Origin: Bacillota bacterium
GTDB taxonomy: Bacteria; Bacillota; Bacilli; Alicyclobacillales; SLC66
Direction: 5' to 3'
DNA: 64,000 nt
Assembly: GCA_021828865.1 (NCBI GenBank)
Contig: JAJZCW010000018.1
Span: 1-64,000 of the forward strand
Made by a program: the position numbers and the translations under genes. The notes beneath the pieces were generated by a model. The model did no database searches. It saw only the letters and a list, made by a program, of their open reading frames with translations, and had not been told where the DNA came from. Within the stretch, counting starts at the first letter, position 1. Each line of letters begins with the position of its first letter. This document shows positions 23,926-31,414 of the stretch, piece by piece.

Positions 23926-24176
23926 TTTCAGCCCTCCTATAGTCGGTACCACGATTTTATAATTATACTGGTAGTCATGGTATTCGTACAATTTCATTAC
24001 AGCCTAACAAACGACAATTATTTGACGTATTTCAAACAACCCAAGAAAAAAAGATCACCCAAAAAATTTAGCTTTTAAGGATAATCGGAAAATTACTCCG
24101 TTTGACAACTTTTGAATTTTATTTGATTATTTCTATATAACCAATAATCAGTATTTTGGAGATGAGACTGAACACG

Positions 24177-25010
24177 ATGACCACTCTGGAAGAACTGATT
24201 CCATTTTTGCCTGCCATACAAAAAAGCTACGCAGAAGATACACATTTACTTTTGTTTGATCAACAAAAGGTGATAGCATCATTACCAGGTAAACAATTGA
24301 ACATTCCCATTTATGTGGAAGATAAACTCGAAGACTTAAATCAGACGGTCACTTATCAGTCTAAACTACAAAAAAAAACCACGCGCGATGAACGAGGACC
24401 TGAGCAATTTGGCATTTCCTATGTGGCAACGGCTACCCCGATATTCAAAGACGATAACCAGAACAGGGAGATCATCGGCTATTTGACCGCTGTCACCTCG
24501 AATCAAAATCTGCACCAATTGCGATCAGATTCACATGAACTGGCAGCGATGGTGGAAGAACTTAGTGCCACAACGGATGAAATTGCCCATGCCTCGGTCT
24601 CCATTGCAGAAGATTTAACTGTGCTAGCCACGTACTCTAACGAAATCGCACAAGACATCAACAATATTCACGAGGTTGTGAACTTCGTACAGGATATCGC
24701 GTCTCAGTCTAACTTGCTGGGACTAAACGCAGCTATAGAATCGGCTCGAGCAGGAGATGCCGGACGCGGGTTTGGCGTAGTGTCTGACGAAATTAGGAAA
24801 ATGGCCACGCAGAGCAAAGACTCTGCAGAAAAAATCCGCATGCGACTAGAGGCACTGGAGAATGCACTGATCAATCTGAACGATGCCGTCAAACGCGTCT
24901 CGCAAAATCAGGACCAACATTCCGCTAGTGTAGAGGAGCTTCGTTCCGTCTTTGAACACATTGCAAAGGTCGCTGACGATCTCGTCAAACGTTCCTCCGT
25001 TACTGAATAG
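24177..25010 (+). CDS. Soluble methyl-accepting-type chemoreceptor, YfmS-like
   Basis: A cytoplasmic receptor of 277 residues with no membrane segment. An N-terminal sensor part (about 1-115) is followed by a short four-helix signalling domain with the hairpin tip [34 protein letters not shown]. Size and layout match Bacillus YfmS. Start choice is uncertain: ATG 24177 is used, though TTG 24156 and ATG 24162 are in frame. Its last 11 bases overlap the end of the converging FTR-like gene. A paralogue lies at 44659. Confidence 0.85.
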
Positions 25011-25632
25011 TCACCATAAAAGCATCCTCAAATGGTTTAAATTCGGCGTTCAATTTTTTTAGTTTTGCAAACTGTAGGATATTGATGGCAGACTGTTCTC
25101 TTGCCACGATAACTTCAAGTGGCAATGAAGATACTTGGTTTAAGGCTTGCTTGATTTGATGAAGCGGATCAGGCACGTCCATTTGCCTGTTGTCACTTTT
25201 AGGCACATCACGGGTATCCAGTATATTTCCTACTAAATTTAAGGAAATTCTGTATTCCTTCATCAAGTCCTTCTCAGCGGCAACAAAGTCTGCATCTGTA
25301 AAATCTCCGCGTGCAAATAACTTACAATGACATGTCCCTGTTTTTGCAATATCCTCTTCCGCAAATGAGCAGGGACAAATCAACTTGCGATCTGTCTTTG
25401 CATCACCAGTCGCTTCAAAACACGGGCAAATTCTCGTGCCATACATCTCTTGATTTTCTGCGATCCATATTTTTAAATTCGTTAAATACATAGGATGCGG
25501 ATTGACGCGAAATCCTTTCCGTTCTGCGTATTTTTGGATCCATTGGTCCATTTTTTTAAGATCACTACGATATCTGAGATACCCCTTCATAAAATCTTTA
25601 TACATTTTCGCTGTAGTTTTCCATTTTGACAA
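25000..25632 (-). CDS. Ferredoxin-thioredoxin reductase catalytic-subunit-like protein with TusA-like tail
   Basis: The middle of the protein has the FTR beta-chain cysteine pattern CPC (69-71), CPC (86-88) and CHC (101-103), which in the family binds a [4Fe-4S] cluster next to a redox disulfide. The first 60 residues are a charged helical lead. Residues about 151-210 look like a TusA sulfur-carrier fold ([14 protein letters not shown], then [19 protein letters not shown]), but the catalytic CPxP cysteine is a valine. It lies 133 bases downstream of the formate dehydrogenase on the same strand, with a hairpin between. No partner FTR alpha chain is nearby. Confidence 0.75.
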
Positions 25633-25765: not shown

Positions 25766-27832
25766 TTAAATTCTTTCTAACCGAACCGCCGTATATTTAT
25801 AAGGTGAAACCCCTGATTTTGAATCAACAACATCATTGGTCAACGTGTTCGTGTTCACCTGTTCAGGAAAATGGAATGTCATAAACACATACCCTTCCAT
25901 CACCCGGTCAGTAATTTTCACAGGCACTTCCACACTGCCGCGTCGTGATGACACTTTGATCCGCGTACCATTTTCCAGTTGATACTTCGCGGCATCTGTC
26001 GGATTGATCTCCATATATTCTTCCTGATCTTTGACCTTCCCGCCTTCATATCGCGTCATGACCCCTGTGTTGTAAAATGCAAGACGTCGACCGGTGATGA
26101 GTACAAAGGGAAACTCCTCATCAGCAGGTTCGAGCGGCTCCTCATATTCCACTGGGGAAAATTTCGCGCGCATTCCCACGTTGTCAGAGTGCAGCCTCGT
26201 ATGAAGCACTTTTTCCGGAGGTTCCGTCAAACTGGGGCAAGGCCACTGCAGTTCATACTCTCTTTCCAACCGTTCGTATGACATGCCGTAATGAGACGGA
26301 GAGAGGGAACGTAGCTCATTCCAAACCTCTTCCGCAGATTGATAGTGCCAGTTCGCACCGAGATAATTGGCAATTTCCTGCAAGATCCAGAGGTCATCCT
26401 TAGCCTCCCCAGGTGCATTGACCATTTTGCGAACTCTTTGTATTCCACGTTCGCTGTTGGTAAATGTCCCATCCACTTCACCCCAGCCAGAAGCGGGTAA
26501 GACCACATCCGCGATTTCCGCGGTTTTGGTCATGAACAAATCCTGTACCACCAACATCTCAAGATTTTCAAATGCACTTCTGGAATGACCAGAATTGGCT
26601 TCAGATTGAATAGGATTTTCACCGATGACGAACATAAATTTGATACGGCCATCGCGCATCGCAGAAAACATGGCAGATTGATTCAACCCGTTCTTAGCAG
26701 GAATCTTACAGTTCCATACTGCTTCAAATTTCGCACGTGCGCCGTCGTCCTCTACATTGAAAAAGCCAGGCAACTTATTCGGGAGAGCTCCCATATCGCC
26801 GCCGCCCTGCACATTGTTTTGCCCACGAAGCGGCATCAAGCCACTTCCTGGCTTGCCCACTTTACCGGTCAACAGCGAGAGATTGATTAGTGCAAATACG
26901 TTGTCAGCACCATTGTGATGTTCGGTGATTCCCAACGTCCATGCAATTACCGCGCGGTCCACTGTCGCATATAATCTTGCCACTTCACGAATCTGATCCG
27001 CAGGAACTCCCGTGATGGTCTCCGCAAATTCAGGCGTGTATTTGGCTACCACTTCTTTATAACTCTCATAAAATTCAGTGGCATGTTCAATAAATTTCGC
27101 ATCATAAAGCTTTTCTTCGATAATCACATGACCAATCGCATTGGCCAGTGCGATATCGGCACCCACACGCACGGGAAGATAATGCGTGGCAAAATTCGCC
27201 ATCGGAAGTTTACGAGGATCCACCAGCACCATTTTGGCACCGTTTTTGATTCCGCGGCGAATATGATTGTAAATGATGGGGTGTGCTTCCTGGGTGTTCG
27301 ATCCCCAAACAATGATCAGATCAGTATTTTCAAAATCCTCATAGGAATTAGTATCTGCTCCACTTCCAAACACTGCCGTCAAACTGACGACGCTGGGAGC
27401 GTGTCAAGTACGGTTACAACTGTCGATATTGTTAGTTCCAATCACCTGGCGCATCAACTTCTGAGCAAGAAAGTTCAATTCATTGGTAGCCCTTGATGAA
27501 CTAAAGCATCCAAAAGCGTCCGCGCCGCTTGCGTCTTTCACTTTGCGTACGCCGTCAGCGATCACCTGCAGTGCTTCTTCCCAAGTAACTTTGACGAGTT
27601 GACCGTTTTTTCGCACCATTGGGTAAGTAAGTCGATCCTTGGACTGGGAATACGTCCAGGCTTGGCTTCCTTTCACACAGGTTTCGCCATGACTGACGGG
27701 TGAATTTTTATCGCCTACCACACTGACGATTCTCCCATCTTTAGCAGTCACAGAAAGTCCACATCCCGTTCCACAAAAACTGCATATGGTGGACTTGGTG
27801 ACTGTTTCAATCGTATCCATTTCGACTGCCAT
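25766..27832 (-). CDS. fdhF: Formate dehydrogenase alpha subunit, selenocysteine-containing (FdhF type)
   Basis: Molybdenum or tungsten bis-MGD enzyme oxidising formate to CO2. An in-frame TGA at 27404-27406 stands exactly where FdhF enzymes carry catalytic Sec or Cys: SCNRT-U-HAPSV, with Sec at residue 143 (140 in E. coli FdhF). Both sides are intact and homologous, giving 688 residues. The N-terminal [4Fe-4S] cysteines are C17, C20, C24 and C52. MGD-binding stretches such as PLRGQNNVQGGGDMGALP and the C-terminal ITDRVMEGYVFMTFHFPE are present. No twin-arginine signal, so cytoplasmic. ATG 27832 follows GGAGGA. A SECIS hairpin lies just past the UGA. Confidence 0.93.
27375..27406 (-). promoter_or_regulatory. 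Bacterial SECIS element with UGA codon
   Basis: On the minus strand the UGA (27406-27404) is followed after 12 bases by GTCGTC-AGTTT-GACGGC (27391-27375). This is a six-pair stem, including one G-U, with a five-base apical loop that has G at its second position. The loop starts 18 bases after the UGA, inside the range known for bacterial SECIS elements read by SelB, and the layout parallels E. coli fdhF. Confidence 0.8.
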
Positions 27833-27941
27833 CAATGTTCCTCCTCTCACGAGTTAAAACTAATTATTATTTTACACCATATAATAAACGCGACAAGGCT
27901 AATAAAGTGACAATTTATTCGTATACCTCAGATCCATTGCG

Positions 27942-30776
27942 TCATTCAAGCTCTCCCAATTTTGAGATTTGCCTGCCAAACATGCCATCGAGAGTGATGA
28001 CAAAGTCATGAAAAGCATTCAACATATTGTCGCGCAACTCATATAGGTATGGAATGCCATGAATGATGGCCGCCTCATTACCCTGTGCTTTTACCGCAAT
28101 GAGGTATCTTCCGTGTTCGTGGATTTCTTCATGGATTCGACGGACCGTCTCCATTTGTGGAATTTCCCCAAAACGGCTCTTTCCGACATGGTCATACCAT
28201 CTTCCAAAATGACAAGCATGCGGATCGAGTTCAGGCGGATTCATGCTGACGTCTTCAACATTTTGTAGAAAGTGAACCATTTGATCGACCCATTGACGAT
28301 GCTCAAGTGGCAATAAAAACAACTGGCTTAGGTACCTGGCCACGTTCATTTCACGAACCGTTTGCCACTCCTCGTATCCTTCATAACTCTGGATCCAGGT
28401 GGGAATGAAGTCAGGCGGCATTGGTCTTGCAATCAGATAGCCTTGCGCCAATTCGCATCCCAATTGGATCAGCGTTTTCCCCTGTTCAATCGTTTCGACG
28501 CCCTCTGCGATCACATCACACTGAAAAACCCTTGAAAGCTCAATGACTGCGCTAATAATGGCCAAATTCCCTTCGCTCATGCTCATATGTCGGACAAACG
28601 ACTGATCAATTTTCAAAATATCGAGCGGGAGATGGCTCAAATAAGTTAACGAAGAATACCCTGTTCCAAAGTCGTCAAGCGATACATGCACACCCAGTTC
28701 TCGCACCGCTTCGATAATTTTTTTGGCCGCCTGCAGGTCACCAAGCTCGTCCGTTTCAAGAATTTCCAATTCCAAATCACCTGGATTGACCCTCGGATGA
28801 CGTTGGAGGACACTTTTCAAATGATTAGGGAAATCGCCATATTTCAATCGTTTTGCCGAGATGTTGATACTCACTTTCAGATGAATGCCTTGTCGCTGCC
28901 AAGATTCAAGTTGGCGAATCGCTTCTTCTTTGACCCAATCATCAAGCAAAATCATAAAATCAGTATGTTGTAAATCTGGCAAAAAAGTCCCGGGAGGCAA
29001 AATACCTTTATCAGGGTGGTTCCAGCGGATTAATGCCTCAACGCCGTACACTTTATGCTTTGTCATTTCTACTTTTGGCTGATAATATAAGACAAATTCC
29101 CCGTTATTGATCGCCTGATGCATTCTGGCATAATCCACGGAGTTGTTTATTAACTGATCCTGTTCCGCATTGAAAATAGTATAATGGTTTTTCCCCGTGG
29201 CTTTAGATCGATACATGGCTTTATCCGCATTTCTAAGTAGTTCGTCGCCGTTAACCCCGTCCAATGGATAAAAAGTTACCCCCACACTGACAGCAGGATA
29301 AAAAACATGATCATTTTCCAAATATGGTTTGGATATTTCGTTCATCATATCAGCGATCAGGACGTGAAAGTCAGAAGGATTTTGCAGGTCATGAAATAAA
29401 ATCATGAACTCATCGCCACTCGGTCTTGAAACCGTGTCTGATTTTCGAATTCGCTCTTGGATGCGGTTGGAGAGCTCAATCAGCAGTCGGTCCCCTCGAT
29501 CATGACCATAATCCGCGTTAAATTGTTGAAAATCATCGACATCGAGGGAACAAACAGCAAGCAGTGTATGGTTGCGGTTGGCACGTTCGATCGCCACATT
29601 TAGGCGATCAAGAAAGAGAATTCGATTGGGGAGATGAGTGAGCGGATCGAAATAAGCAGATCGGTTGTCTTTCGCCCCTTCCAAACCTTCATCCATGACG
29701 GTGGAAAAGGTGGAGATGTATTGTTTGAACGGATGCCCATCGGTCGAAACCGCCGCAATGCTTAAAAACTCCTCAAAAATCTCCCCGTTTTTTTTCCGAT
29801 TAATAATCCTTCCCTTCCACTTTCCGCTCGTTTCCACCTCATCCCACATTTGCTGATAAAATGCCGAGTCATGATAGCCTGATTTAAGCAAATTGGTAGA
29901 TTGACCAATCACTTCATCGCGGTCATAACCTGTAATCCGCAAAAAAGCCTGGTTCACTTCAAGAAATTGGCCATTTTCATTTGTGATAAATACGCCTTCC
30001 TCCATATTGTCAAAGACGGCCGCCGTCAGTTGCAGTTGGTGTTCATAATTTTTCCGTGTCGTCACGTCTCGCTGCAACCCTACATAATGCGTCAATTCGC
30101 CAGCATCATTGTATAGCGGTGCAATCGTCAATTCATTCCAGAAAAGCGATCCGTCCTTGCGATAATTTCTCAGTTCAACAGTGCATCCCCGCTGTTCTTT
30201 AATGGCCAGGCGAATTTCGTCTATCCCTTCCTGATCGCGGTCATCGCCTTGTAAGAACCGACAATTTCTCCCCAATGACTCTTCTGGAGAATACCCCGTC
30301 AACTCATAAAATGCAGGATTGGCATAGATGATGCGCATTTCTTTATCATAATGATCGACGATGGTGACGCCATTAACCGTATACTCGACCGCCTGCTGGA
30401 ATAGTGAGAGGTACTCCTGCGCACGCTTCAGGAGGTCCACATCAATTAGCCAGACCTCATATGTATAACTGCCATCAGGAAGCCGTTCCACCACTTGCGC
30501 TTGCAACGACTTCCACACTCTTGGATTTGTTAAACCTTGAAAAAGAATATGTTGGTCAGTGACACGATTTATTTTTTTTAACTGATTGATGAGATCCAGA
30601 TAATCTGTAGGATGATAAAAAATGTCGGAAGGATTGAACGGATAGGAACCGGATTCATTCCTATTTTCAAGAATATCGAGAGATGCTCTCAGAAATTTGT
30701 TCATTCCCAACCATTCGTCCGTAGATTTCGCACGGAAATAGCAAAAGGGAATATTATCCTGCTCGTCTGTAAGCAC
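27942..30776 (-). CDS. LOV-PAS-GGDEF-EAL-CZB cyclic-di-GMP enzyme
   Basis: Probable blue-light-sensing diguanylate cyclase/phosphodiesterase, cytoplasmic, 944 residues. Domains: an N-terminal region (1-120); a LOV domain (about 120-240) with photoactive GRNCRFLQG (Cys172) and flavin ligands Asn204, Asn214 and Gln235; a second PAS (about 248-360); GGDEF (about 375-537) with SGDEF at the active site (453-457); EAL (about 550-800) with EALIRW and DDFGTGYSS; and a C-terminal CZB zinc domain with DPHACHFGRWY (Cys855). Cys-to-Asn spacing of 32 and 10 equals that of Bacillus YtvA. GTG 30776 has AGGGGGAGGGAG upstream; the frame is open to 30809. Confidence 0.93.
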   Translation of the reverse strand: MLTDEQDNIPFCYFRAKSTDEWLGMNKFLRASLDILENRNESGSYPFNPSDIFYHPTDYLDLINQLKKINRVTDQHILFQGLTNPRVWKSLQAQVVERLPDGSYTYEVWLIDVDLLKRAQEYLSLFQQAVEYTVNGVTIVDHYDKEMRIIYANPAFYELTGYSPEESLGRNCRFLQGDDRDQEGIDEIRLAIKEQRGCTVELRNYRKDGSLFWNELTIAPLYNDAGELTHYVGLQRDVTTRKNYEHQLQLTAAVFDNMEEGVFITNENGQFLEVNQAFLRITGYDRDEVIGQSTNLLKSGYHDSAFYQQMWDEVETSGKWKGRIINRKKNGEIFEEFLSIAAVSTDGHPFKQYISTFSTVMDEGLEGAKDNRSAYFDPLTHLPNRILFLDRLNVAIERANRNHTLLAVCSLDVDDFQQFNADYGHDRGDRLLIELSNRIQERIRKSDTVSRPSGDEFMILFHDLQNPSDFHVLIADMMNEISKPYLENDHVFYPAVSVGVTFYPLDGVNGDELLRNADKAMYRSKATGKNHYTIFNAEQDQLINNSVDYARMHQAINNGEFVLYYQPKVEMTKHKVYGVEALIRWNHPDKGILPPGTFLPDLQHTDFMILLDDWVKEEAIRQLESWQRQGIHLKVSINISAKRLKYGDFPNHLKSVLQRHPRVNPGDLELEILETDELGDLQAAKKIIEAVRELGVHVSLDDFGTGYSSLTYLSHLPLDILKIDQSFVRHMSMSEGNLAIISAVIELSRVFQCDVIAEGVETIEQGKTLIQLGCELAQGYLIARPMPPDFIPTWIQSYEGYEEWQTVREMNVARYLSQLFLLPLEHRQWVDQMVHFLQNVEDVSMNPPELDPHACHFGRWYDHVGKSRFGEIPQMETVRRIHEEIHEHGRYLIAVKAQGNEAAIIHGIPYLYELRDNMLNAFHDFVITLDGMFGRQISKLGELE

Positions 30777-30825
30777 AATCTCCCTCCCCCTATTACAATA
30801 TCTTCTCATTTTCCTATTTCCATTA

Positions 30826-30854
30826 ATTATAGCGATTCAATTTTCATTCGACAA
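30826..30854 (-). promoter_or_regulatory. Sigma-A promoter of the LOV protein gene
   Basis: On the minus strand TTGTCG (30854-30849), 17-base spacer, perfect TATAAT (30831-30826). The expected start point is about 40 bases before the GTG. Confidence 0.7.
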
Positions 30855-30955
30855 GAAAGAACAAAAAGTGTGATGGATATCATCTGTTACTTTCATCTCT
30901 ACGATTACAATGTGTGGGACTCATCGAAACACCTATTGCGAAAGGAGTAAGTACA

Positions 30956-31414
30956 ATGGCTGCTTCAGAACACTTTTCATTTAATGAGATGCACATGATC
31001 AAAAGAAAATCTTTGGGTAATGTCGTTCCCCTCGAATTATTCAGATCGATTCGATTAATCGGCATGTACCAGGGTTTACCCTTAAACGGGAAAGGCACCA
31101 CCAGCGTAATCGGCAAGAAAATTGGCGAAAGTCTTCCGGTGAACACGGTGGAAGATGTTTTACAATTATTTAAGGAATTAAAAATTGGGATTCCAAAAGT
31201 GCTGCATCAGGATGAACGTGGTATGCGAATCGCGATAGAAGATTGTTTTTGCGAAGGATTACCCGTTCATGAGGGCAAATTCGTATGCGATCTTGAAGGA
31301 TCTATTTTTGAAGGGGCATTAATCAAAATTCTAAAAAGAAATGTAAGCGTCAGGGAAATCAAATGCAATGTGAATGGTGATGACCATTGCGAATATGACG
31401 TTAGATTTATGTGA
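30956..31414 (+). CDS. V4R-domain protein
   Basis: A 152-residue protein whose C-terminal 80 residues match the V4R (vinyl-4-reductase) small-molecule-binding domain: RIAIEDCFCEGLPVHEGKFVCDLEGSIFEGAL and then KCNVNGDDHCEYDV, with conserved Cys/Gly spacing. The domain usually binds small ligands in regulators or in bacteriochlorophyll and methanogenesis proteins. ATG 30956 follows AAAGGAG; the frame is open to 30914. It is divergent from the LOV gene and four genes of unknown relation follow. Its role is unknown. Confidence 0.75.
   Translation: MAASEHFSFNEMHMIKRKSLGNVVPLELFRSIRLIGMYQGLPLNGKGTTSVIGKKIGESLPVNTVEDVLQLFKELKIGIPKVLHQDERGMRIAIEDCFCEGLPVHEGKFVCDLEGSIFEGALIKILKRNVSVREIKCNVNGDDHCEYDVRFM

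Follow-up and report, generated by a model that had tools for sequence, protein, structure and literature searches.

A LOV-PAS-GGDEF-EAL-CZB protein of a Bacillota bacterium as a candidate light- and zinc/redox-regulated c-di-GMP phosphodiesterase

The window analysed in this work, a stretch of 64,000 nucleotides from a Bacillota genome, carries a gene whose product joins LOV, PAS, GGDEF, EAL and CZB domains in a single chain. This domain combination is real, conserved and unusual, and it is made from known parts: EAL-CZB and LOV-GGDEF-EAL proteins are both recognised classes already, and what is unusual is the LOV domain in front and the Bacillota host. The best explanation of the data is a soluble, cytosolic c-di-GMP enzyme with its own promoter. 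On balance, and by a modest degree of confidence, we favour the view that it would act chiefly as a light- and zinc/redox-regulated c-di-GMP phosphodiesterase, with a GGDEF domain that is regulatory or weakly active.

Gene, promoter and genomic surroundings

The whole gene maps to positions 27942..30776 of the minus strand, from a GTG start at 30776 to a stop at 27942, and encodes 944 residues. The same frame also offers an ATG start (30809..27942, minus strand, 955 aa). We consider the GTG to be the better start, because it is preceded by AGGGGGAGGGAGATT and because the orthologue (L013) has a closed frame immediately before the equivalent GTG, where a similar ribosome-binding site is found. 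Residues are counted here from the GTG unless ATG numbering is indicated. A sigma-A-like promoter, TTGTCG-17-TATAAT, maps to 30826..30854 on the minus strand with 10/12 matches and is present in the sister genome too; the evidence for it consists of its conservation and position, the promoter scan by itself being no better than chance.

In the Pfam searches, PAS_9/LOV, PAS, GGDEF, EAL and CZB all exceeded the curated cut-offs. The order along the chain is N-terminal region, LOV, PAS, GGDEF (as SGDEF), EAL and CZB, and the succession of domains that an earlier note on this DNA had proposed behind the LOV domain is thereby borne out. For the N-terminal region (residues 1-124; 30405..30776, minus strand), Pfam yielded nothing at a threshold as loose as E 5; the earlier note made no reference to this region and gave no strand for the gene. 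An AlphaFold model of the full protein, built with two sequences, reached a pLDDT of 35, too poor for the domain arrangement or the zinc site to be judged from it.

Divergently from the LOV gene, a V4R-domain protein is encoded at 30914-31414 (plus strand), in an arrangement that recurs in the sister genome; a functional link between the two is possible. At 25766-27850 (minus strand), a formate-dehydrogenase-like molybdopterin oxidoreductase is split into two frames by one in-frame TGA (27404-27406). This protein is probably a selenoprotein, since the TGA lies in SCNRT*HAPSV, the usual selenocysteine position, and a tRNA-Sec was matched in the host genome at 66.5 bits; for a SECIS at this gene there was no Rfam match, and the hairpin following the TGA folds no better than shuffled sequence. 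Just downstream lies the gene of a ferredoxin-thioredoxin reductase catalytic-chain domain protein (25000-25632, minus strand), adjoined by that of a short MCP-domain protein (24156-25010, plus strand). Contamination of the metagenome bin was considered and rejected, given that the LOV gene lies among ordinary Bacillota genes and has the same upstream neighbours in the sister genome. Its GC content, 44.4% against 46.8% for the window, is not telling on recent transfer.

The host genome (3.1 Mb) contains 22 EAL-domain matches, which amounts to a large c-di-GMP repertoire, but only 3 PilZ matches. Since EAL, PilZ and flagellin matches (2 of the latter) are all found, the host has the means to use a c-di-GMP signal.

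Sensor, catalytic and CZB domains

The LOV domain comprises residues 125-250 (30027..30404, minus strand; Pfam PAS_9/LOV match at 148-250 in ATG numbering), and its identity, as judged from Pfam and solved-structure matches, is far beyond chance. Specifically, the best solved relative is 7a6p, a short LOV protein of the PpSB1 type (E 2e-38), and YtvA (2pr5) is matched at E 4e-30. The photochemical set is complete and kept in the orthologue: the adduct-forming cysteine in GRNCRFLQ is C172 (30261-30263), accompanied by N204, N214 and Q235, and these four residues, already named in the earlier note, are exact under GTG numbering. The YtvA-like spacing that the same note attributed to them has to be corrected. 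The observed C-N-N-Q spacing of 32/10/21 is of the PpSB1 type and aligns without gaps to PpSB1-type short bacterial LOV proteins, whereas YtvA has two residues fewer in the part that is matched.

The PAS domain and its linker to GGDEF follow at residues 251-366 (29679..30026, minus strand; Pfam PAS match 263-346 in ATG numbering, E 4e-28). From the PAS domain to the DxLT motif there are 15 residues, a normal length; in both genomes this stretch has two glycines and has lost the DIT-type signalling-helix pattern that most of the compared PAS-linked GGDEF-EAL proteins show. Because this pattern is eroded in both genomes, the coupling between sensor and cyclase appears to be weakened.

In the GGDEF domain (residues 374-531; 29184..29657, minus strand; Pfam match 385-542 in ATG numbering, E 4e-42), the DxLT motif, the metal-ligand aspartates and the I-site RKSD (444-447) are intact. 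The signature motif at 453-457 departs from the GG[DE]EF consensus in both proteins, reading SGDEF here and, through a GGC>GAC change, SDDEF in the orthologue, where it hinges on a single base of a metagenome contig with very low coverage (1.19) and could be a sequencing error. The erosion of the PAS-GGDEF helix is a second sign against cyclase coupling, independent of that base. The non-canonical motif lowers the claim of a predicted cyclase activity, not that of GGDEF homology. The EAL domain (residues 553-785; 28422..29120, minus strand; Pfam match 564-796 in ATG numbering, E 1e-71) has a complete catalytic and metal-binding set (the E of EAL, N, E, DD, K, E and Q), as determined by alignment with MorA (4rnh) and by motif positions, and the catalytic residues are all retained in the orthologue.

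The CZB domain (residues 826-890; 28107..28301, minus strand) was matched by Pfam PF13682 at 837-901 in ATG numbering (E 1e-8, 35.6 bits against a curated cut-off of 29.4), and it sits C-terminal to GGDEF-EAL, as in the GGDEF-EAL-CZB class. Its predicted zinc ligands H826, C855, H882 and H886, together with CHFGRW, align with the CZB structure of E. coli DgcZ (3t9o). The 3-His/1-Cys set and the CxFGxW motif are complete and the ligands are kept in both sisters, as is a Trp three residues after the first His, which one study describes as a specific feature of the cyclase CZB subgroup (PMC8262984). An AlphaFold model of the CZB tail was all-helical with a pLDDT of 70, and Foldseek gave no significant match for it.

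The host genome encodes a second CZB protein (L048, G000:C43:84654-84851), which is soluble, 404 aa long and chemoreceptor-like, with an MCP-type signalling hairpin. Its presence alongside the LOV-CZB enzyme in one species runs against the statement of a 2021 survey that species have CZB chemoreceptors or CZB cyclases, not both (PMC8262984).

Conservation, distribution and origin

A single orthologue was found, L013 on contig JAJZAS010000053.1 ('MAG: Bacillota bacterium isolate HSP1.bin31'), which is 94% identical and shares the promoter and upstream neighbours of the LOV-CZB gene. All the named catalytic and ligand residues are kept in it, the cyclase motif excepted. The overall dN/dS between the window gene and this orthologue is 0.098, and the gene is under purifying selection. 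By region, the LOV domain is the lowest of all domains (0.035), followed by EAL (0.07), GGDEF (0.095) and PAS (0.14); CZB is the highest among the assigned domains (0.17), its ligands nonetheless being conserved, and the N-terminus stands at 0.25.

Among 59 genomes of the order, the LOV-CZB protein occurs in the host genome and in its sister (G003) only, and a scan of genome contigs with the full protein likewise returned the sister as the only match. In 400 genomes of the class, no further CZB frame longer than 800 aa was detected. Across 399 genomes of the phylum, CZB was present in 93, and the longest frames gave one more EAL-CZB protein (L037, in G428). That protein is a GAF-GAF-GGDEF-EAL-CZB with a degenerate GGDEF motif and no first CZB His where one would be expected; its contig is 9 kb long, and contamination is possible. 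In a partial check that covered the longest frame per fetched locus, neither the rest of the host genome nor the relatives examined showed another LOV domain with the reactive Cys; the remaining matches were ordinary PAS domains.

On plasmids, EAL-CZB proteins were found in Aeromonas (HAMP-PAS-GGDEF-EAL-CZB) and in Acidithiobacillus caldus (Protoglobin-GGDEF-EAL-CZB, its CZB just under the cut-off), none of them with LOV; conversely, the LOV-like GGDEF-EAL plasmid proteins examined, from Halomonas, Acinetobacter and Shewanella, are without CZB. A LOV-CZB fusion was not found in the literature searched. All together, in the order, class and phylum genomes and the plasmids sampled, LOV and CZB in one chain were confined to the host genome and one close sister; the sampling concerns Bacillota genomes and plasmids, and proteobacterial genomes, which lie outside it, may hold such proteins.

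The pairing of a CZB domain behind EAL with a LOV domain in front had been called unusual. This is right for the LOV domain, while CZB behind EAL is not unusual in itself: EAL-CZB proteins make up 3.4% of about 10,000 CZB sequences (PMC8262984) and are known from Aeromonas and Acidithiobacillus, the latter having AFE_1725 (PAS-GGDEF-EAL-CZB) as well as Protoglobin-GGDEF-EAL-CZB, with some such proteins on integrative elements (PMC6416229). The Aeromonas plasmid protein WP_223949404.1 has PAS, GGDEF, EAL and a C-terminal CZB in the same order as here. The known EAL-CZB proteins, however, carry protoglobin, HAMP or plain PAS in front and have Pseudomonadota hosts, whereas the present one has a photoactive-type LOV domain and a Bacillota host.

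Outside the sister, the best match of the GGDEF-EAL core is an Aeromonas EAL-CZB protein (389-391 bits), the best paralogue in its own genome scoring 363 bits. In the tree, the core falls near EAL-CZB proteins and one paralogue group and away from LOV-GGDEF-EAL proteins, with weak support (57/79 and 93/92). A plausible history is the addition of a LOV module to an EAL-CZB chassis.

Proposed function and alternative readings

Flavin binding, zinc binding, dimerisation, the sign of each signal and net phosphodiesterase activity are what we infer from sequence. In the working model, the protein, probably a homodimer, would have as its main output the hydrolysis of c-di-GMP by EAL. Blue light would lead the flavin-bound LOV domain to form an adduct at C172, altering the LOV dimer, and the PAS layer would relay this rearrangement to the GGDEF-EAL core or EAL dimer. 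The CZB domain, directly behind EAL, would bind zinc through H826, C855, H882 and H886 and adjust the EAL dimer; activity would then change when zinc is lost or the thiol oxidised. The GGDEF domain would mainly be a regulatory, nucleotide-binding or weakly active part, and the net effect would be a choice between motile and attached life set by light and the zinc/redox state. The earlier suggestion of a single polypeptide that may integrate blue light, a PAS signal and zinc to set c-di-GMP is a reasonable one.

Known systems resemble the protein in part. SL2 and other LOV-GGDEF-EAL blue-light phosphodiesterases (PMC8846402) likewise have a canonical LOV domain upstream of GGDEF-EAL and an intact EAL site, but lack the PAS domain between LOV and GGDEF and the C-terminal CZB. 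The LadC LOV-GGDEF cyclases (PMC10396304) are LOV-controlled c-di-GMP enzymes, as predicted here, yet their LOV domain is joined straight to GGDEF via a coiled coil, with neither EAL nor CZB. E. coli DgcZ (CZB-GGDEF) shares a 3-His/1-Cys CZB in a c-di-GMP enzyme, whereas its CZB is N-terminal and controls a cyclase, and it has no LOV and no EAL. DgcZ, to which the earlier note had turned for zinc inhibition, is therefore not a good model for whether zinc would raise or lower activity in a protein whose CZB follows EAL, whose cyclase motif is non-canonical and whose intact site is that of a phosphodiesterase.

The phosphodiesterase reading is favoured because the cyclase motif is SDDEF in the orthologue and the PAS-to-GGDEF helix is eroded, while the EAL site is intact and conserved. 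In addition, SL2 is a phosphodiesterase that light activates (PMC8846402), and light did not regulate synthesis in LOV-GGDEF pieces taken from LOV-GGDEF-EAL proteins, light being thought to act on EAL (PMC10396304). A rival reading is a true bifunctional switch, in which an active SGDEF cyclase would allow light or zinc to flip the balance of synthesis and hydrolysis. The remaining GGDEF residues and the I-site are present, and activity is known for two SGDEF enzymes, ECA3270 and CdgB (PMC3974145, PMC9683572); against this stand the SDDEF of the orthologue, the helix with two glycines in place of a DIT motif, and VCA0965, whose activity was lost once the first motif position became Ser (PMC3974145). 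We regard such a switch as unlikely.

Two further readings concern the sensors. The LOV domain might be a flavin redox sensor, or light might fail to reach the output, CZB giving the operative signal (zinc, HOCl or redox), in keeping with the sensing of HOCl and zinc by the CZB of DgcZ and TlpD (PMC8262984, PMC6715182). The strongest constraint in the protein, however, falls on the photoreactive Cys and the entire LOV core, and the other LOV-like matches of the host are, in the frames read, ordinary PAS domains, which points to specific retention of LOV and makes this reading quite improbable. That CZB might be a mere dimerisation tail, with no zinc signalling, we hold to be more doubtful still: both sisters retain the four ligands, the CxFGxW motif and the Trp that follows the first His, even if dN/dS among the assigned domains peaks in CZB and the Bacillota L037 protein is without the first His at its expected position.

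Our preferred reading remains the regulated phosphodiesterase. A bolder version, which we put forward as speculation with a low chance of being correct, is a single-chain logic gate in which blue light at LOV and zinc or oxidant at CZB would jointly set EAL, LOV having been added to an EAL-CZB chassis shared with Pseudomonadota. If true, the cell would read light together with the photo-oxidative consequence of light.

In conclusion, the surprise lies in the combination and not in any mechanism, the separate parts being well known. If both sensors act, light and zinc/redox control of c-di-GMP would become measurable on one enzyme, as additive or gating effects. The CZB-regulated c-di-GMP enzymes would then extend to Bacillota, against the 2021 survey, which had them in Proteobacteria only and none in Bacillota (PMC8262984), and a CZB chemoreceptor and a CZB c-di-GMP enzyme would have been shown to occur together in one species.
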